30,355 nucleotides of DNA from a virus: the IMG/VR virus record IMGVR_UViG_3300034068_000203, positions 1 through 30,355 of that record, one strand, 5' to 3'. Positions 1 to 30,355 of this stretch are shown piece after piece. A model generated the notes under the pieces. The model was not told the origin of the DNA. It saw nothing but the letters and a program-made list of their open reading frames with translations, and did not search any database. Position 1 is the stretch's first letter. Every line of letters starts with the position of its first letter. A program made the translations under genes and the position numbers.

Positions 1-114
1 TGAGGTAAAATGTTAAAGAAGAACCACCGCCTGATGAAGCAGGGAAGTTAGCCAAGCTACCATCACCTCTCACATATTGTGATACAGTACCTGCTCCTGT
101 AACCGCTATATCTC
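1..114. repeat. Terminal overlap, copy 1 (circular join)
   Basis: These 114 bases are identical to 30242-30355. Removing one copy gives a circle of 30,241 bp. The overlap lies inside a tail-fibre reading frame that stays open across the join (994 + 1208 = 2202 nt, exactly 734 codons). The overlap therefore looks like assembly redundancy of a circular or circularly permuted molecule. A true 114-bp terminal repeat of a linear genome cannot be excluded from sequence alone. Confidence 0.95.
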
Positions 115-994
115 CACTACTTGTAATGGGACTATTCGCTACACTAAATGCGGAAGGCATTGTTAAGCCCACGCTTGTAACTGTTCCAGTTGGTATTGTC
201 GGAAGGTTGTCGAGGTCGTTATAGTTGTTGCTGAAACCAACCGCGCTGATGCTGGTGATGTCAGCCTTCAAAAGTATTTCTTCTTCGAGTGCGTCAATGG
301 CTGCTTCAATGTCTATAATAGTTTGACAATCACCAATCGTTTCGCAGGTTAATCCACTTGCTTCAAGTAAGTACCAACCGCGCACTCCTTCCTCGTCCGT
401 TCCGTAGTAATAGTTTGGTGCTGGTGTTGCCTCATCATTCACTAACGACACGTTGCCGTTCTCGTCGCGTGTAATTGAATCAATGAACGTTAAGATTGAA
501 CCCGTACCACCGCTTCCGCTTTCAAAAAAGTCGTTCCACTCCGCAGGAATTGAACACGCGTCCCAATAATAAGGAACAAGCAATTCAAGACTAATCGTCC
601 AACCTGTTAACGTGTTGTGAAATTCTTCAAGGAAGGGTTCTAACGTGACATTTTGCACCGTGATTAAGTCGCCAAACAAAACGCGGTGGTTTGTTATCTC
701 GGCAACTAAATCTTCAGCTATGCGTTGAAGGTCAGAAAGAACCTCACGTTGAAACTCAACCTTGTCGTCTTTATCTCTAGGAAGATCCGCAAGGACAATC
801 TGAAAAGAGAATGTCTTAGTACCTTTTGCGTAAGTAACGTTCGAAGGTACAACGTGCATAAATGGATATTCGGTAAACTTTTCAAGGTCTGCCGTGTCAA
901 TCTGACCATGTGAAAAGGTCTTAAGAATAAAGTGTCCAGAGGCAAATGCCTTGAATCTATCTATAAGTGCGTTGTAGCTTTGTACGTTCGACAT
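1..994 (-). CDS. Tail terminator-like / tail fibre fusion, 5' part (continues across the join)
   Basis: The frame opens with ATG at 994 and is still open at base 1. It continues at 30241 down to a stop at 29034, giving 733 aa in total. The first ~170 residues (starting MSNVQSYNALIDRF) form a compact domain with the segment LADLPRDKDDKVEFQREVLS, which resembles tail completion or terminator proteins of Bacteroidota phages. I recognise that family only by its general look. The rest of this part (Gly/Ser/Thr-rich, with GTVTSVGLTMPSAFSV and VRGDGSLANFPASSGGG) has the usual look of a trimeric tail-fibre shaft. The start overlaps the end of the frameshifted chaperone by 38 nt, which fits coupled tail genes. 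The likely role is capping the tail tube and carrying a receptor-binding fibre. The unusual feature is the fusion of both roles in one chain. Confidence 0.8.
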   Translation of the reverse strand, partial: MSNVQSYNALIDRFKAFASGHFILKTFSHGQIDTADLEKFTEYPFMHVVPSNVTYAKGTKTFSFQIVLADLPRDKDDKVEFQREVLSDLQRIAEDLVAEITNHRVLFGDLITVQNVTLEPFLEEFHNTLTGWTISLELLVPYYWDACSIPAEWNDFFESGSGGTGSILTFIDSITRDENGNVSLVNDEATPAPNYYYGTDEEGVRGWYLLEASGLTCETIGDCQTIIDIEAAIDALEEEILLKADITSISAVGFSNNYNDLDNLPTIPTGTVTSVGLTMPSAFSVANSPITSSGDIAVTGAGTVSQYVRGDGSLANFPASSGGGSSLTFYL

Positions 995-1241
995 AATTGT
1001 AGTCTATTAGGTAAGTCATATATGTAAATATCTCCCACGCGCTTTTTTCCGTAATTGAATCTAATTTAGTTATGTCACGTCCGCATGCTTCCATGAAAAG
1101 GTGATACCAACCGTATCTTCCAAGCACATGATTTAAGTTGTCTCTGTCTTCAATTGCTCCGTCAGTTCCTCCGTCAACTTCTGTACTTCCTTCTCCAAAT
1201 AGTCTAGCGAAGTGTTGCTTAGTTCGTTGAGCAAAGTCGAA
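957..1241 (-). CDS. Frameshift extension of the tail assembly chaperone (gpGT-like C-terminal part)
   Basis: A -1 slip on the T9 run joins frame 0 of the 194-aa chaperone (codons 1-159, 1717 down to 1241) to this frame (from 1241 to TAG at 959-957). The result is a 253-aa protein. The -1 frame is open without interruption and reads like real protein, with the segments NHVLGRYGWYHLFMEACGRD and SAWEIFTYMTYLIDYNYVE. A GWY segment followed by an acidic helix is typical of the second tail chaperone of Bacteroidota siphoviruses. It has no suitable start of its own close to the slip. By analogy with lambda gpG/gpGT, this domain would bring tail-tube subunits to the tape measure. The alternative is a sequencing error in the T9 run. 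Against that, the frame-0 tail (LEKEVQKLTEELTEQLKTE) also reads as real protein. Confidence 0.75.
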   Translation of the reverse strand, partial: FDFAQRTKQHFARLFGEGSTEVDGGTDGAIEDRDNLNHVLGRYGWYHLFMEACGRDITKLDSITEKSAWEIFTYMTYLIDYNYVERTKLQRTYR

Positions 1242-1717
1242 AAAAAAAGCATCGCACCATTGAATTGTTCAAGCGTCATCTGCTCAACGTAGCCTTCAAC
1301 GAGTTCTCTGTTTTGTTTGCTGTGTGGGACGATTGTATACTTTGAACCTACGCGTTTGTCTATTGGTCGGTAAAGCGTTCCCATTATTTTGACCATGTTC
1401 TCACCTACATTTGCAGCCCACGTTGAAATGTCAGCGTACTCACCCATTGAGATAGAATACAGGTCAGGAATGAAACCAAAGTCCTTGTCTTTGATTGTTA
1501 TCGTTTCAAAGAACTTTGCGCTTTCGTTAGCGAGTGTATCTTCAAACGCTCCTAACAATGTCGGCAAATGTTGGAAGGGAATTTGTTCCGCTTGTTCTTT
1601 CAGTAGGTTACTAATGCTAACCAACTTGTCGATGTCGTTCTTCGCTGCGTGGTAGTCAACGTATTGCTTGACGCTTATTGAAGAATAGTCAGCAGGTATA
1701 CTTACTTTTATACTCAT
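1133..1717 (-). CDS. Tail assembly chaperone (gpG-like), 194 aa
   Basis: The protein starts MSIKVSIPADYSSISVKQY and has a long mixed helical body, with SISMGEYADISTW near the middle. It ends in a charged helix rich in Glu, Lys and Leu that is probably a coiled coil. The layout matches tail assembly chaperones of Bacteroidota phages, which bind the tape measure and tube subunits during tail building. Codons CTT TTT TTT near residues 157-159 form a T9 slippery tract where a -1 shift leads into a second good frame (957-1241). The leader holds two perfect copies of a 20-base repeat. In this genome the gene sits upstream of a terminator/fibre fusion and far from the tape measure, while in most siphoviruses the two are adjacent. 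The chaperone assignment rests mainly on the frameshift architecture. Confidence 0.75.
   Translation of the reverse strand: MSIKVSIPADYSSISVKQYVDYHAAKNDIDKLVSISNLLKEQAEQIPFQHLPTLLGAFEDTLANESAKFFETITIKDKDFGFIPDLYSISMGEYADISTWAANVGENMVKIMGTLYRPIDKRVGSKYTIVPHSKQNRELVEGYVEQMTLEQFNGAMLFFSTLLNELSNTSLDYLEKEVQKLTEELTEQLKTETT
1240..1248 (-). promoter_or_regulatory. Slippery T9 tract for -1 ribosomal frameshifting
   Basis: On the coding strand the sequence is C followed by nine T, read CTT TTT TTT TCG in frame 0. A one-base backward slip keeps perfect tRNA pairing. The new frame then runs 94 codons to a stop. About seven bases downstream a weak 5-bp stem (TTGCT with AGCAA, 10-base loop) can form and might help pausing. 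Confidence 0.7.
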
Positions 1718-2520: not shown

Positions 2521-3804
2521 TTATTGTTCTGTTTTAGCATACGTTTGACCGTTACGCTTTACGCTCAACGAAGGGTCTAGTTTCAACATTCTATCTATTA
2601 TCACTTGACAATACTTTGGGTCGAGTTCCATTCCATAACACTTGCGATTAAGTTGGTGCGCTGCAACCATTGTTGAACCCGAACCCAAGAAAGCATCTGC
2701 AACTATTTCATTTTCTTTTGAGCTGTTTTGAATTAATGGAGCCAATAAAAGTATTGGTTTCATTGTTGGGTGTTCTGTGCTTCTAGTTGGTTTGTCGCAA
2801 TGTATTATTGTTGACTTGGTTTTATCGCTTAGCATTTCAGTAAGCATTTTTTTCATTTCGTCTTTTGTAAGTTTTTTAATATCTATCTTGTCTTCTATTA
2901 CGGTTGTATGATTTCTTTCGTTTGTAAAATAATGAGCAGCTCCTTCCTTCCATCCGTATAAACAAAGTTCGTGTTTCCATTGGTAATCTTGCCTTCCCAT
3001 AACCATTGAATTTTTGACCCACACAAGGTATTGTTTTAATAAAAGTCCTGAATTTCTCATAGCTGTTGAGAAGTTTGCGGTTTCTGTCGAGGCGTGCCAA
3101 ACATACCAAGCACCGCCCTTTTTTGTGTAGCTTCCTAACGCTGTGTAAAAATCATATAAAAATTGGTAGAAATTGGAATCGGACATATCATCATTTTGTA
3201 TTGTTAAAGCGTCCTTTGTTTTTCCAATGTAAGCAATATTATACGGAGGATCAGTCATAACCATGTCGCAAAGTTTTTCATTCATTACTTTGTCCCAAGT
3301 GTCTACTTGTGTACTATCTCCACACAACAAACGATGTTCGCCTATCTCAAATAAATCTCCAATTACAATGTTGGTATTTATTTCATCTGGTATTTCGTAA
3401 TCATCTTCTTCAACTTCTATTTCTTCTTCAACTATTAAATCTGAAGGCAAGTCTAAACCCCACTGGTCCAATTGTTCCGCGTCCCATTCGTTTGCTAACG
3501 CATCCCAGTCCCATTCACCAAAACCAACATTGTCTTTAATAATAAAGGCGCGTTGTTGTTCTTCGTTTAATTCAGATGCTTTGATAATTGGTATTTCTTT
3601 AAGTCCTGCTTCTTTGCACGCTTTCAATCTCATGTTACCACCAAGAACAATCATATCTTCATTTACGACTATTGGACGTAATTCCAACATTTGTGGAAGT
3701 TCTTTGATTGAAGCAACGAGTTTCTTGAATTTATCGTCCTTAATAATTCTTGGATTATTAGGATTAGATTTTACTTCGTTGATAGGGACAGTTTGTGTCT
3801 TCAT
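2521..3804 (-). CDS. ParB-like domain / DNA (N6-adenine or N4-cytosine) methyltransferase fusion, 427 aa
   Basis: Residues 1-110 form a ParB/Spo0J-type N-terminal domain with SNPNNPR at 13-19 and the GGNMRLKACKEAG nucleotide-pocket motif at 55-67. Residues ~145-415 are a beta-class amino methyltransferase. The catalytic motif DPPY is at 185-188, HPTMKP at 345-350, and the S-adenosylmethionine-binding AFLGSGST at 371-378. It probably methylates phage or host DNA; the ParB part may guide it to DNA. It is the first gene of the late leftward unit, just before the small terminase, so it may mark DNA for packaging or protect it from host restriction. No restriction enzyme gene is adjacent. By eye the gene is more AT-rich than its neighbours. 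Confidence 0.9.
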   Translation of the reverse strand: MKTQTVPINEVKSNPNNPRIIKDDKFKKLVASIKELPQMLELRPIVVNEDMIVLGGNMRLKACKEAGLKEIPIIKASELNEEQQRAFIIKDNVGFGEWDWDALANEWDAEQLDQWGLDLPSDLIVEEEIEVEEDDYEIPDEINTNIVIGDLFEIGEHRLLCGDSTQVDTWDKVMNEKLCDMVMTDPPYNIAYIGKTKDALTIQNDDMSDSNFYQFLYDFYTALGSYTKKGGAWYVWHASTETANFSTAMRNSGLLLKQYLVWVKNSMVMGRQDYQWKHELCLYGWKEGAAHYFTNERNHTTVIEDKIDIKKLTKDEMKKMLTEMLSDKTKSTIIHCDKPTRSTEHPTMKPILLLAPLIQNSSKENEIVADAFLGSGSTMVAAHQLNRKCYGMELDPKYCQVIIDRMLKLDPSLSVKRNGQTYAKTEQ

Positions 3805-15901: not shown

Positions 15902-17590
15902 TTATGAGTATTTAATTGAACCTCGTGAGGGTGTGTTAATTGGAGCAACACCTTCAGCTCCTTTTTGCGGTACAAATGGATTGTTACCAACGCGCTTGTC
16001 GTTATTTAATCCGTCGTTAGGAAGTACACGTCCTTTTGAATCTCTTTTACGAATGTAAATTTGACGCTTCCAAAAGTGATGACAAAACGCGCCACCTTTC
16101 CAAATAAATATGTCGTAGGTGTTTGAACCGCCTGGTCCGAAATCGGGGTTAATGTCGGGATCTTTGCTCATCTTTTCAATATCTTCATATCTAAAAGACA
16201 AACCTGCTTGAGAAATACCTACCATTTCTTGACAAAACTCACGACTATTTTCGCTTAAGTTTTGTGAGTAAGCATAACGTAATTTGTAAAGTCCTGTGTC
16301 GCCAAAAGCAGACCTTTCGTCAGCGTTTGCGTAACTACGAACACTCATATATTCCTGACGGAAATTAGCCTCGTTTTCGGGTTCTGTTACGTCTTCTTCA
16401 CTCAACAACTCCCACTCGTCTAAATCGACTAATTCAGCTTTTTCTTTTAGCGCGTTAATCCAAAGACGACCTTGCTCATCTGAAAAATCATTTTCAGCAG
16501 CAACTACTTTTTTTTTTAACTCAGCAGTTTGAACCGTTGGTTGAACAACAACTACTTCGTCGAATACGCTGTTCATTGTGATAGTTAAATCACTTCCAAG
16601 AATAGGCGCGAATGTATTTGTAATGATTCTTTGGTATGGCTTGATTACTTGATTGTTGAATATCTCCATTCCAACCAACATTTCGTCCTTATTCGAACCG
16701 AATCCTGTTGTATCTCTAATTCCGTGAATCAATGGCGACACAACGCGGTGTCCTACCATGATTTGCTTTGCGGTTTCTTCTGATAAGAACTGATATTGTT
16801 TGTCAGCGTCCGACAAAGGAAAGTCTTGTATTTGTGGAGCGCGTGTAGGATCTTCGTTGAAAGTCATTAAGAACTTCCCTGCGTTACTTGCACCGCTCAA
16901 TCTTTCTTCCCACTCACGACGTATTGCCTCACGTTCTTCTTTCTGCGGTATTCCGTTTAAGAAGTTAATGATGAATGAAGGAAATAATCCGTTTAAGATA
17001 TTGTTGACGTGGTATAGTCCCATTTGATAAGACAACTCAACGTAGTTCAACGCTCCGAAGTAGTCAGGCTTTGCGTAGTACGAAGAACCTGCCATCATTC
17101 CGTGAGCGTAGATAACTTGACGCGGTTGTTCTTCCGCCTGTGAAGGATTGAATGCAGGAATGAACTCAGGCTTTCCTTTTTTGCTTCGTGAGTTAGCCCA
17201 GTCACGTGAATACCAAATTCCTGTAATGTCATCTTCTTCTTTGTCGTAAGCAAGACGACAGTTCTCAAAAGGCAAGTGGTTGATTTTAACAACGCGAGTG
17301 AAGTCCATTGACCAAATCACTTCGGCAACAAATGCACCTTGAAGTTTTAAGTCGAACGCAATACCTTGCAATGCGTTGTCGAGAATCGTACCGGTACCTT
17401 TGCCTTCAATCATGTAAGCAATTGAGTTCGTCAATGCGTTGTGAATAGGACTGTTATAATAAAGCGTGATTAGGTGCTGAGGAAATAAGTTGTTGTAACC
17501 GTAGTCAATCCAACCAGCACGGTTCTCTTTTTCAGTTGCTTCAACTGGTTCGTATGCCGATAAGTTAATTGCTTGAATGTTATTTTCCAT
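15902..17590 (-). CDS. Portal protein with extra C-terminal domain, 562 aa
   Basis: Residues 1-~370 have the portal outline, with NNLFPQHLITLYYNSPIHNA, an early clip and wing region, ETAKQIMVGHRVVSPLIHGI, and FNNQVIKPYQRIITNTFAPI in the stem and crown area. An acidic linker (~370-420) leads to a C-terminal domain with YAYSQNLSENSREFCQEMVG, MSKDPDINPDFGPGGSNTYD and GGAFCHHFWKRQIY. This domain is often found at the end of Bacteroidota-phage portals and might be a minor-head or injected-protein function. The protein forms the ring through which DNA enters and leaves the head. In this genome it follows the capsid and tube genes instead of preceding them. Confidence 0.88.
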   Translation of the reverse strand: MENNIQAINLSAYEPVEATEKENRAGWIDYGYNNLFPQHLITLYYNSPIHNALTNSIAYMIEGKGTGTILDNALQGIAFDLKLQGAFVAEVIWSMDFTRVVKINHLPFENCRLAYDKEEDDITGIWYSRDWANSRSKKGKPEFIPAFNPSQAEEQPRQVIYAHGMMAGSSYYAKPDYFGALNYVELSYQMGLYHVNNILNGLFPSFIINFLNGIPQKEEREAIRREWEERLSGASNAGKFLMTFNEDPTRAPQIQDFPLSDADKQYQFLSEETAKQIMVGHRVVSPLIHGIRDTTGFGSNKDEMLVGMEIFNNQVIKPYQRIITNTFAPILGSDLTITMNSVFDEVVVVQPTVQTAELKKKVVAAENDFSDEQGRLWINALKEKAELVDLDEWELLSEEDVTEPENEANFRQEYMSVRSYANADERSAFGDTGLYKLRYAYSQNLSENSREFCQEMVGISQAGLSFRYEDIEKMSKDPDINPDFGPGGSNTYDIFIWKGGAFCHHFWKRQIYIRKRDSKGRVLPNDGLNNDKRVGNNPFVPQKGAEGVAPINTPSRGSIKYS

Positions 17591-21026: not shown

Positions 21027-22922
21027 TTATCCTCCTAATCGTGATTGGTTTTGAATTAACTGTTGTGCTTCTAAGTTGCTTGACACTTGACCGCCTAAGA
21101 CGTACGCTTGCAATGGTGGTTGTTGGTTGGGTTGCTGACTGATAAAGTCGTAGTTAGCAGGGGAAGGTGCTGTTGTTCCACCACTTGCGCTTGGTACACT
21201 TCCACCGCCACCACCACCACTTGTTCCACTTGTTCCTTGAAATTGTTGTTTGCTTATAATGGCGACACGCGCAAGACCTTGTGCTATTGCTATTCCTGCT
21301 GCTATTGCTGCACGAACAGGTGCGTCTGGTGTACTAATAGCCATTTGCGAACGATACGCTCCTTGTGCGGCAAGATATGTGTCTATGGTAGCTGTTGCTA
21401 TACTTACACCCTTTTGTATTGCAAATGCTTTCTTCTGTTGCGCTTCAGACTTTCCTGCAAATGCCGCTGCTAAATCTCCAATGATTGATAAAGACGTTTT
21501 TAATGCGTCAACGCGAAGTTGTGCTTTTGCTGCTTCCGCTTGTCTTAATTCTTCAAGTTCTTCTTGTGTATGTATAGATTTTAAGGCGGTAAGATTTGCA
21601 TGTGACTGCATTTCGGCAAGAAGTTTTGCATCTGCTTTTTTCTTTTCTCTTGCCTTTAAATCTTCGTAGCTAATAGATGCCATTCTATCATCTTCAGCCA
21701 TCATTTCGTCGTTTAATTTTTTACGACGTTCTAACTCATCTTTATCTGATTGTTCTTGCAAACGTTTCTTTTCATCTTCTTCTTTTTCTCTTGCAGTTTT
21801 TGCTGCTTTAGTTCTTTCATGAATTGCTTTTACTTCGGTGTCAATAGTAGCTAATACCGCAGAAGATGCTTCTTGTTCAAGATATGCTATTCTTTGAGTA
21901 GATTCTTCTAAATCTAAAGCAGCTTTTCCTATTCCTTCTGTACCATTGTACCATTCACTTATATTTTGGTTTGTTTCTTTAAATAATGTTTGTGTATTAA
22001 ATCTTGCTGTTTCTACTGCTTTATCAAATTCTTGTTGAGTTAATTTTCCTTTTTTAGCAGCAAGTTCTTGTTCTAACGCTATTTTCTTTGCATATTCTTG
22101 TTCTAATAATCCTTTTGCTGCATTTGCTTTTGCTTCTTTTTTTATGTTGTCAATTAACTTTACTTTTGCTGCATTTAACGCTTCTGTATCGTTAATATCT
22201 CCATTGATATTTGAGAAGTATGCTGGATACATATCTTCTAAATCACTCAATGCTTTTCTTCTTTCTTTTTCTGTTAAATTATGGTCTTGAACTCTTTGAG
22301 TTAATATCTCAATTTGAGCAATATTTTCTGCTCCTTTTGCAAGTTCTTGTTTTGTTGCTTCATTTAAATCATTAGTAACTCTTGTAAGATTTTGTTGTTC
22401 TATTGAAGTTTGTTTTGACCATGTAGCAATTTCTTTCCAATTGTAAGCAATAGCAGCTAAAACACCAACAGTTAAAAAGAAAGGATTAGATACAACAGAA
22501 GCAGCAAGATTTCCTAAACCTTTAACTAATCCTCCTACTTCTTCTTTAATTGTTTTAAAATCTATTTTTCGAACCGCTGTTCCCATTCCTGTAAGCGCTT
22601 GTCCTGCGCCTTTCAAGTCCAAGTCCATAAGACGTGAACCGAACAAACCAACGTTGTTAGAAAGACCTTCGAAGGCGTTACCAGCGTTAGCACTAATCTC
22701 TGCGCCTAAGTCGGAAATGTTGTCCTTCAACTCAGCAGCACGTGCAGACGCTTTTTTGAACGCGTCGCTCGTTTGATCCATCGTGAGCAACTGATTATTC
22801 AGCGCACGAAGTTCAGCCTTTGCGCTCTTGAATCCTGTCGCCGTATTGTCCGCAGCGTTTGCGGTTTGGTTGAGGATATTAACCGCATTTGTGCTTACGT
22901 TGAAATCTATTGTATTCGCCAT
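21027..22922 (-). CDS. Tape measure protein, 631 aa
   Basis: A long Ala-rich helical protein with coiled coils at the start (~25-80) and middle (~330-460), a hydrophobic segment at about 140-160 (ASVVSNPFFLTVGVLAAIAY) and a Gly/Ser/Pro-rich end (GGGGGSVPSASGG). It sets tail length and is ejected with DNA. At roughly 1.5 angstrom per residue the tail would be near 95 nm. The middle (about 21540-22560, residues ~121-460) uses clearly more AT-rich codons than both ends, which suggests recombination. Its ATG overlaps the previous stop as TAATG. Confidence 0.88.
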   Translation of the reverse strand: MANTIDFNVSTNAVNILNQTANAADNTATGFKSAKAELRALNNQLLTMDQTSDAFKKASARAAELKDNISDLGAEISANAGNAFEGLSNNVGLFGSRLMDLDLKGAGQALTGMGTAVRKIDFKTIKEEVGGLVKGLGNLAASVVSNPFFLTVGVLAAIAYNWKEIATWSKQTSIEQQNLTRVTNDLNEATKQELAKGAENIAQIEILTQRVQDHNLTEKERRKALSDLEDMYPAYFSNINGDINDTEALNAAKVKLIDNIKKEAKANAAKGLLEQEYAKKIALEQELAAKKGKLTQQEFDKAVETARFNTQTLFKETNQNISEWYNGTEGIGKAALDLEESTQRIAYLEQEASSAVLATIDTEVKAIHERTKAAKTAREKEEDEKKRLQEQSDKDELERRKKLNDEMMAEDDRMASISYEDLKAREKKKADAKLLAEMQSHANLTALKSIHTQEELEELRQAEAAKAQLRVDALKTSLSIIGDLAAAFAGKSEAQQKKAFAIQKGVSIATATIDTYLAAQGAYRSQMAISTPDAPVRAAIAAGIAIAQGLARVAIISKQQFQGTSGTSGGGGGGSVPSASGGTTAPSPANYDFISQQPNQQPPLQAYVLGGQVSSNLEAQQLIQNQSRLGG

Positions 22923-28014: not shown

Positions 28015-28740
28015 TTAAATATATTTAGTTGCCCTTGCAAATTTAATCACTGCGCTATCACTTGAATTAGTTAATTGAATTGAAAATAATAAATAATATG
28101 ATGTATTTGTATTGTATGTTATATTACTAACACTTCCAGCAATACTAAAATCTCCCAAAGTCGCTGTATTTGCTTGAATAGTGCTTAAAGTATTACTCTT
28201 TATACTCATATTTCTTATGGATTGAAAAAATTGAGAATTAGTATTTACTAATGTAGCTATCAATGTTGCTCCTGTTATAGTATTTGATGTATTCAAATAA
28301 ATGCGGATTGCAGCGTTTCCTGCGCTACCTGTTTTTAACGCTCTTGTTATTATTTCAAGCATTCCGCTTGTGGTAAAAGTATTTGCAGCAATTAACATTG
28401 ATTTAGACAACGTATCTGCGGTTGTTCCCGTTACAACTGTGCCGTCAGTTATATCTAATGAAATGACTGACGGATTACTGCTTCCACCAACTACTAAATC
28501 ACCACTTCCTAAAACCGAACTTCCATTAATGGTTTTGATGTTAGTACCACTAACAAGAGCTGCCTGTTTTGCGTTGAAGGTAGCCCAATCCGTAGCCGAT
28601 AAATAACCGTCAACCAAACTGGTAGCAGCAGGCATACTGATAGCAGGTGTCGCTCCACCTGACGACACAACAGGTGCTGTCCCTGTTACGGAAGTTACAC
28701 CACTCGCAGCCGCTGCTTTTATGTAGACGTTGTTAACCAT
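28015..28740 (-). CDS. Second tail fibre-like protein, 241 aa
   Basis: It begins MVNNVYIKAAAASGVTSVTG and contains SATDWATFNAKQAALVSGTN and IKTINGSSVLGSGDLVVGG, nearly the same as in the long fibre (DWTTFNGKQ and INGNSLLGSGDLVVGG). The C-terminal ~150 residues are also related to the long fibre tip (MLEIITRALKTG, YLNTSNTITGATLIA, ending KYI). It looks like a shortened copy of the fibre end and is likely to bind receptors. It is followed by a copy of the small partner gene, so both came from one duplication. Confidence 0.8.
   Translation of the reverse strand: MVNNVYIKAAAASGVTSVTGTAPVVSSGGATPAISMPAATSLVDGYLSATDWATFNAKQAALVSGTNIKTINGSSVLGSGDLVVGGSSNPSVISLDITDGTVVTGTTADTLSKSMLIAANTFTTSGMLEIITRALKTGSAGNAAIRIYLNTSNTITGATLIATLVNTNSQFFQSIRNMSIKSNTLSTIQANTATLGDFSIAGSVSNITYNTNTSYYLLFSIQLTNSSDSAVIKFARATKYI
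28468..28600 (-). repeat. Diverged direct repeat between the two fibre genes
   Basis: This stretch matches 29491-29625 with scattered changes. Both encode the ATFNAKQ/TTFNGKQ to LGSGDLVVGG linker and the start of the tip domain. The flanking tips differ far more, which suits exchange of tips through a conserved linker. Confidence 0.75.
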
Positions 28741-29033: not shown

Positions 29034-30355
29034 TTAAAAGTATTTTGTTAATAAAGCTGCTTCAGTTCTTGCGGTATCACCTCCACCCACTGTTCTTATA
29101 CAAAACAACAAATAATTATCAACAGTTGTATTGAATGGTGTTGTCATCATTTGATCTGCAACGAAATCTGTAAGTTGAGCTCCAGTAGTCCCAAAGTAAC
29201 ATAAATTACCAGCTGTTAAATGAAAATTTCGTGTAAGAGTTGCATAAGTTTGAGTCGTGCCTATTGTCGGACAAGCTGCTACTATAATTGCTCCTGATAA
29301 ACTATTTGATGTGTTTAGAAAAGCAGAACCAGTAATACCACTTGCAGCACCTGTAATTCTTTTTACTTTGTAAATAACTTCTAACATAGAATTACTTGTT
29401 AATGTGTTTGCAGGTATTAAAACTGACAAACTAATTATTTGAGTAAATGGAGTACCAACAGTTGCACCACCTGTTGTATTTATATAAACTGTTGAGGGAT
29501 TACTGCTTCCACCTCCTCCTACTACTAAATCCCCACTACCAAGCAACGAGTTGCCGTTAATAGTCTTGATGTTAGTACCGCTAACGAGTAGATCTTGCTT
29601 GCCATTAAACGTTGTCCAATCCGCAGAACTTAATGCGCCTCTATTGGCTGCGCTTGCTGTTGGAAGGTTAAACGTATGCGTACTTGTCGCTGATGAGATA
29701 CCGAAGTCAGTGCCACTCGTTCCAGTTGCGAAGTTCTGCACCTGTGCCGTTAAGCCATTCAATGCAGTAACACCTGTTGAGAAGGTAGTAATGACTTGAC
29801 AAAGATGACTATTTTCAGTATGAAGTGTAATCGTTCTGCCTGAGTGCGTAACGTAGATTCTTATTGCTAACCTATCCGTTACCGTTAACACTGTTTGCGG
29901 TACTGCTAATGCACTAACGTAAAGGTGTATTGCCGTTCCGTTGGTGATGCCTTCGGGAGTAGCCGAGTTAGACGCTATCAAAGACAATGTTGCTCCATCC
30001 CATTTGTATAACTCAATATAAAATGAAGGAGTGCCACCGCTACTTGATGCGCTGAAATATGTTTCAAAGTTCCAATTTCCTCCAGGTATCTCTAATAGAT
30101 TTGGAACATTCGCATCTGTAATAAAAGACTGAATGTAACCATCTGCTGCTATTGTGAAATCTGTTCCTGCACCTAAGATAGGCACTCTGTCCATTTCCTT
30201 AAACGCTACACCGCCAAATGTTCCTTGTGCTACTGATCCGTTGAGGTAAAATGTTAAAGAAGAACCACCGCCTGATGAAGCAGGGAAGTTAGCCAAGCTA
30301 CCATCACCTCTCACATATTGTGATACAGTACCTGCTCCTGTAACCGCTATATCTC
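29034..30355 (-). CDS. Tail terminator-like / tail fibre fusion, 3' part
   Basis: This is the continuation of the gene that starts at 994. 30355-30242 repeats 114-1, and residues after the join run to TAA at 29036-29034. It has fibre shaft signs (VTALNGLTAQVQNFATG, TFNLPTASAANRGALSSADW, INGNSLLGSGDLVVGGGGSS) and then a tip domain (~150 aa, ending LLTKYF) related to the second fibre. The tip part is more AT-rich than the shaft, as if exchanged. A GTG at 30314 could be read as a start, but the frame is open upstream through the join, so it is internal. Confidence 0.8.
   Translation of the reverse strand, partial: DIAVTGAGTVSQYVRGDGSLANFPASSGGGSSLTFYLNGSVAQGTFGGVAFKEMDRVPILGAGTDFTIAADGYIQSFITDANVPNLLEIPGGNWNFETYFSASSSGGTPSFYIELYKWDGATLSLIASNSATPEGITNGTAIHLYVSALAVPQTVLTVTDRLAIRIYVTHSGRTITLHTENSHLCQVITTFSTGVTALNGLTAQVQNFATGTSGTDFGISSATSTHTFNLPTASAANRGALSSADWTTFNGKQDLLVSGTNIKTINGNSLLGSGDLVVGGGGSSNPSTVYINTTGGATVGTPFTQIISLSVLIPANTLTSNSMLEVIYKVKRITGAASGITGSAFLNTSNSLSGAIIVAACPTIGTTQTYATLTRNFHLTAGNLCYFGTTGAQLTDFVADQMMTTPFNTTVDNYLLFCIRTVGGGDTARTEAALLTKYF
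29491..29625 (-). repeat. Diverged direct repeat in the long fibre, partner of 28468-28600
   Basis: Shared stretches on the plus strand include ggattactgcttccacc and ttgatgttagtacc, at equal order and nearly equal spacing in both copies. It marks the linker between shaft and tip. Confidence 0.75.
30242..30355. repeat. Terminal overlap, copy 2
   Basis: Identical to bases 1-114. See the first copy for the reading-frame argument. Confidence 0.95.

Follow-up and report, generated by a model that had tools for sequence, protein, structure and literature searches.

How can one phage gene be open in two reading frames towards its 3' end, and what would carry gene expression from one frame into the other? 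A gene in a 30,355-nucleotide viral contig (the window, meaning here the whole stretch of DNA analysed) raises this question. The two ends of the window are joined by a 114-nt terminal repeat, leaving 30,241 unique bases; the window is therefore a closed circle, a circular phage contig. The gene lies on the minus strand, which an earlier sequence-only reading of this DNA had left unstated. Its frame-0 ORF (1133..1717, minus strand) has 194 codons, of which codons 1-159 encode an N-terminal domain common to both possible products and the last 35 a frame-0 tail with its stop codon at 1133-1135. The two parts meet at a run of nine T's, the putative slip site (1240..1248, minus strand), which appears as A9 on the plus strand and as CTT TTT TTT TCG in the codons of the gene. 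After a -1 shift in the run, the frame stays open for a further 94 codons (957..1247, minus strand), including a GWY motif, and closes with a stop at 957-959. The last 38 nt of this extension (957..994) overlap the start of the next gene, whose ATG is at 994. The sequence-only reading had given the run, the lengths of the two tails and the overlap correctly, and had explained them by a lambda-like ribosomal -1 slip yielding a gpG/gpGT-type pair of tail chaperones. Just 5' of the start codon of the gene, a 20-nt unit, ATTACTAAACCATTACGAAA, occurs twice as an exact tandem (minus strand, 1727-1766).

We collected relatives of the gene from viral contigs. Scans with the frame-0 protein returned 128 relatives and scans with the -1 domain 117, of which the best 80 of each were kept. 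The near set comprises 144 genes readable from the start, 88 of them distinct, with identity down to about 74%; this count leaves out the locus of the window itself and L113, L144 and L135, which are cut at the start. Among named phages, the frame-0 protein retrieved just the Nonlabens phages P12024L and P12024S (28-29% identity), and the -1 domain of the window had no match in the phage collection at E<=1. With P12024L as the query we obtained 63 loci, namely P12024L itself, two at 94% and 56% identity, and others at 25-34%. A wider set was gathered by profile and single-sequence scans from several clades, in two of which the best 80 of at least 600 matches were taken. It contains 563 loci with the N-domain, 561 readable at the site and two (L480, L487) cut at contig ends. 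The run-length count, which besides these two leaves out L001, L149, L248 and L249, is based on 400 sequences that are distinct over up to 450 nt, many of them close relatives; the number falls from 563 to 400 because many loci were one contig fetched repeatedly. Tails were counted in 381 of the 400, since 19 end at a contig edge, and the tree holds 396. Two scans of a bacterial genome collection gave 29 and 21 pattern-matching stretches, none encoding a relative, and thus no prophage copy at that sensitivity. The named relatives point to a host of the window phage among the Bacteroidota.

The T run was present in every relative: T9 in 308, T10 in 84 and T12 in 8 of the 400 distinct sequences, with none shorter. 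In the near set the sequence TGC-T9-CGA was unchanged in 88/88. The distant, P12024L-type set (48 distinct sequences, P12024S included) had T9 in 47 and T10 in one, L193, in the usual phase. In L193 a T replaces the base preceding the run and the frames are as usual; L193 had been considered as an in-frame fusion, which was rejected because the usual split frames are present. The cultured phages P12024L and P12024S share T9 with the window, as do other contigs, demonstrating that the T9 of the window is no assembly artefact.

The shifted frame was conserved as well. In each of the 381 relatives with both frame ends within the locus, the -1 frame was open for 79-93 codons after the run and outlasted frame 0, and a GWY-like motif was found in 379 of these extensions; frame +1 ended within 19 codons. 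None of the 381 has a stop that breaks the -1 frame. On the 5' side of the run a stop soon closes the -1 frame, usually at a distance of 14, 11, 6 or 2 codons and never beyond 63, and the -1-frame residues directly after the run are conserved. Among the 88 near sequences, 85 have their -1 stop at nucleotide 758 or 761 of the gene (the other three run off the contig), and the frame-0 length differs by a few codons.

Selection on the two frames was assessed from parsimony changes per site on a tree of 85 of the 88 near sequences, three of which run off the contig. At codon positions 1, 2 and 3, the part coding in frame 0 only had 2.9, 1.77 and 14.11 changes per site, and the part coding in frame -1 only, read in that frame, had 3.48, 1.02 and 8.28. 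The dual part, read in frame -1, had 5.71, 2.5 and 2.41. Frame-0 position 3, which is -1 position 1, was thus at 5.71 in the dual part versus 14.11 in the frame-0-only part, and -1 position 3 was at 2.41 versus 8.28 in the -1-only part. Neither third position stays near its single-frame rate (14 and 8, respectively), which indicates purifying selection on both frames. In a second clade, comprising 24 sequences whose overlap is 83 codons, the drop was similar, with 0.39, 0.12 and 0.57 in the dual part and 2.35 at position 3 of the single-coded frame 0; its -1-only part, at just 7 codons, says little. The run of at least nine T's in 400/400 relatives and the conservation of both frames bear out the proposal of a programmed frame change behind a shared N-terminus, and on this comparative evidence recoding at the T run appears nearly certain.

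Phage P12024L has the same arrangement. Its gp40 and gp41, annotated as two hypothetical genes, resemble the window in T9, in frames and in a similar gene order, at 28-29% identity. The -1 extension of gp40 carries a GWYH motif, as that of the window does, and the frame-0 tail is 25 codons long, compared with 35 in the window. The gp40 stop and the annotated gp41 start overlap as TAATG (JQ823123, 24473). The gp41 gene corresponds to the end of the -1 extension, and its annotation is probably wrong. The slip-gene family matches PHROG 32199, whose function is unknown.

Homologues in which the two domains form one protein were also found. The frame-0 protein had a weak fold match (E 1.9e-3, TM 0.36) to a protein of Flavobacterium phage 6H, and the match in BFVD, R9VW65, is presumably gp10 of 6H, judging from its length of 191 aa. 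This weak match led us to homologues in Cellulophaga phage Ingeline_1 (gp5), Flavobacterium phage laban6-1 (gp017), Bacteroides phage BT-TP2 (gp31) and Polaribacter phage Leef_1 (gp2), in each of which one continuous frame of 259-301 aa spans both domains; two Microcystis phage records were also matched in that search. A profile of trans-frame products (69, of which 46 remained after filtering) aligned with these four single ORFs at an hhalign probability of 96.8 and E 2e-10 in this one comparison. The alignment starts near column 76 of 248, passes across the joint and shows the domains to be colinear. Against the same family the N-domain alone scored 94.6 and the C-domain alone aligned weakly, at 7.6. 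In contrast to the window, the four single-ORF genes have T runs of at most 6, and their other frames are never open beyond 51 codons. The single-ORF homologues give independent support for the long product. In phage 6H itself a 105-codon frame, mostly unannotated, follows gp10 (L249 10044-10361, minus strand) and matches the C-terminal part of the single-ORF homologues, and a TAG closes the -1 frame of gp10 right after a T6. The 6H gp10 may be a further split case, in which a frame change, re-initiation or a sequence error are all possible.

Two explanations would dispense with any frame change. The C-domain could be a separate protein, made from an internal start or by re-initiation at the frame-0 stop, and P12024L is in fact annotated in this way, with the gp40 stop overlapping the gp41 ATG. 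In the near set, however, the first ATG of the -1 frame is at codon 48-49, behind the GWY motif, in 88/88 sequences, and in the distant set 32 of 47 sequences have no ATG in the -1 frame at all and in the others its place varies (GTG and TTG were not counted in either set). The conserved -1 residues moreover begin right at the run, and the single-ORF homologues join the two domains in one chain, so that we regard a separate C-domain protein as very improbable. The other is an error of sequencing or assembly, to which homopolymers are prone, or a pseudogene with one broken frame. Against this, 400 distinct sequences, which come from many contigs and include two isolate genomes, all break frame in the same way at nine or more T's, and both frames are under selection; we give hardly any credence to either an error or a pseudogene. 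More probably, programmed slippage on a homopolymer of nine or more T's lets the gene yield two proteins. A template read without a slip would give the short protein, consisting of the N-domain and the frame-0 tail, and a net -1 shift in a fraction of the events, most simply an mRNA with one extra U, would give the long protein, consisting of the N-domain and a C-domain of about 80-94 residues.

Is it the ribosome or RNA polymerase that slips? A ribosomal -1 slip needs a heptamer of the form X_XXY_YYZ, which is U_UUU_UUU in this gene; U_UUU_UUC, or a run of only seven or eight, should serve it too. Slippage by polymerase needs a long homopolymer and no stem. Outside the slip gene, sense T runs in 1,061 other ORFs of these loci (at least 150 codons each; 865,557 nt; raw counts) comprised 399 T6, 64 T7, 4 T8 and 1 T9, and sense A runs comprised 78 A8 and 16 with a length of at least nine. 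A run of nine or more T's, found in 400/400 relatives of the slip gene and once in 865,557 nt elsewhere, is therefore kept here and very rare in other genes. Another slippage-prone run of the window lies in the portal ORF (15902-17590), where T10 on the plus strand at 16508-16517 is a sense A10. Within the near clade, slip codons 157-159 showed no third-position changes, compared with 3 to 22 (average 15) at six conserved Phe codons of the same gene. The argument that the eighth T could have changed silently is weak by itself, given that the distant clade prefers TTT (0.80) and TTA (0.85); the argument rests on the length of the run and on its moves. Part of the run is owed to amino-acid constraint, with a hydrophobic NTT codon before it and Y, S or W codons after it.

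Aligned by the flanking protein sequence, the runs form six classes that differ in length and in where they start, four start positions being used. On the tree of 396 sequences the class changed at least 24 times, indicating repeated moves of the run, and it always remained at least nine long. The eighth position is C, G or A in 58 sequences, and there the run begins one codon earlier: codon 159 is changed in 58 of the 66 sequences with an upstream NTT-TTT extension versus none of the 334 without one. Likewise, the ninth base is not T in 11 of 94 sequences where codon 157 is TTT versus none of 299 where it is [ACG]TT, and nine sequences retain T9 with a non-T ninth position by having T as the first base of codon 157 instead. 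In seven sequences the preceding codon is AGT and the run extends further downstream. Fisher P-values on these run-shift groups are inflated, because the groups were chosen post hoc and the tips are related, kinship being ignored.

These data bear on the ribosomal explanation, in which two tRNA-Phe would slip in tandem on U_UUU_UUU as in the gpG/gpGT system. The heptamer is in frame in all 400 sequences, as follows from run lengths and phases, and the -1 direction fits; lambda and other phages are described as making their tail chaperones by a -1 slip (PMC5009743). A heptamer, however, would permit runs of seven or eight and U_UUU_UUC, and nothing under nine was seen; positions eight and nine are lost only beside an extension on the opposite side. 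The earlier expectation of at most a weak 3' stem agrees with our results, since none of 29 pairs downstream covaried in an 18-sequence alignment and the folding of 12 downstream stretches gave z-scores of -1.34 to +1.29, without consistent stability. We therefore judge a ribosomal slip the less likely mechanism. Because the conserved feature is a run of at least nine rather than a heptamer, RNA-polymerase slippage is favoured, although the length is not fixed, being 10 or 12 in 92 of the 400, and from the sequence comparison RNA polymerase is likely to be the slipping agent, generating mRNAs with U10 in place of a slip by the ribosome. Slippage of polymerase and of ribosome may both act.

RNA-polymerase slippage has precedents. 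Baranov et al. (2005) report that in a large share of the bacterial genomes they studied selection against A/T runs becomes evident at a length of nine, and regard a 9A/9T run whose length is conserved among homologues as very likely purposeful slippage (PMC1088944). What is looked for in transcriptional realignment, a run of about nine or more kept in the homologues and a conserved shifted frame downstream, is what we found (9, 10 or 12 in 400/400; an open -1 frame in the 381 readable to the end). Known cases of transcriptional slippage include Thermus dnaX, IS elements and Shigella spa13/mxiE (PMC5009743, PMC1088944). Like the window, Thermus dnaX (A9), the IS transposases and Shigella spa13/mxiE combine a slippage run with an extension or truncation in the shifted frame, and the spa13 extension, like the one here, runs into the next gene (PMC5009743, PMC1088944). 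They differ in that dnaX and the IS elements, as described there, use nine A's, whereas the window has a T run in the structural operon of a tailed phage. In Citrobacter tssM1, slippage at A11 is reported to give two length variants, both needed and in a critical ratio (PMC4256274), and the methyltransferase of Campylobacter phage CPt10 is another phage gene with suggested slippage (PMC2853527). No paper linking transcriptional slippage with phage tail chaperones was found among the open-access texts covered by our literature search. Translation of the next gene may also be coupled to that of the extension through the 38 nt that they share.

The surroundings of the gene bear on its function. 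The window and P12024L have a common gene order, T9 gene, gp42-like, gp43-like, gp45-like, gp46-like, tape measure, protease, capsid and portal, in which the gp45 pair is weak (E 0.18). The gene next to the slip gene (2..994, minus strand) continues across the circle joint to 29034, and its N-terminus resembles P12024L gp42 (22% identity, E 3e-5). Only this N-terminus is gp42-like; the rest of the gene (window 1-994 and 29034-30355) looks tail-fibre-like by eye, and past the N-terminus it shares motifs with window 28015-28740. The gp43-like gene carries a PHROG hint of tail completion or Neck1 (E 4e-4). In all 12 further loci that we looked at, gp42-like and gp43-like genes come after the slip gene, and in the 10 distant loci among them a large-terminase-like gene lies upstream of it. 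The single-ORF homologue of Ingeline_1 sits between an adaptor gene and the tape measure. The shared gene order and the Ingeline_1 position together make the slip gene part of a neck/tail operon, which, by its place in that order, it heads. Near the slip gene, window 2521-3804 holds a ParB-like/DNA methyltransferase gene with counterparts in L188, L191 and L214; over parts of its length it shares 59-75% identity with distant members of the family, exceeding the structural genes.

The tape measure gene itself (21027..22922, minus strand; PHROG tape-measure matches, best E 9.9e-12) is downstream in the same transcription direction, about 8.3 kb past the -1 stop round the circle. The separation of the two genes noted in the sequence-only reading is thus real, in the window as in P12024L, with several genes between. 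Like lambda gpG/gpGT, the slip gene lies in a structural operon with a slippery site and would give a short and a -1-extended product with a common start, the frame changing shortly before the first ORF ends. It differs from gpG/gpGT in that it is not directly upstream of the tape measure, in that neither protein of the window matched the Pfam and PHROG chaperone models at E<=1, and in that its relatives conserve a run length of nine or more, not a heptamer. Of the proposed gpG/gpGT-type chaperone pair, then, the two products from one start stand, and we have not filed the gene as a gpG/gpGT member because it lacks the position next to the tape measure.

Structure comparison added little to this. 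The predicted model of the frame-0 protein (pLDDT 84) had 35 matches in BFVD at E<=1e-3, all uncharacterised or unnamed phage proteins, and the name 'tail assembly chaperone' appeared only at E 1.1. Among PDB folds it had none at E<=1e-3 and three weak rows (Z 2.1-2.7), and profile searches of solved structures gave none for the N-domain and two chance-level matches for the C-domain (E 0.66 and 1.8). For the -1 domain the predicted model was too poor to use (pLDDT 57). A tail-chaperone function is the best available guess, with about an even chance of being right, because the gene is recoded and sits in a structural operon, and pairs of this kind are characteristic of chaperones. Its chief competitor is a role in the connector or neck. 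More tentatively, the pair may serve in the assembly of the tail or neck, in which case the long form would be the counterpart of the one protein that other phages make, and the short form an added partner whose ratio would be set by the run.

Taken together, these data raise the prospect, to which we give slightly less than even chances, that programmed slippage of the host RNA polymerase on at least nine T's sets the ratio of two tail or neck assembly proteins throughout a large family of tailed phages, whose hosts are probably Bacteroidota. The ratio logic of gpG/gpGT would then operate at transcription, in a gene that elsewhere is one continuous ORF. The annotation of P12024L is corrected in the process, part of its extension having been annotated as a separate gene. 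The family is widespread, with at least 600 matches in each of two scans. If the proposal is true, the gene would offer a natural way to assay slippage of the host's RNA polymerase, which could be put to the test in cultured P12024L, and tailed phages would regulate an assembly-protein pair by a frame change at two levels, by the ribosome or by RNA polymerase depending on the lineage.
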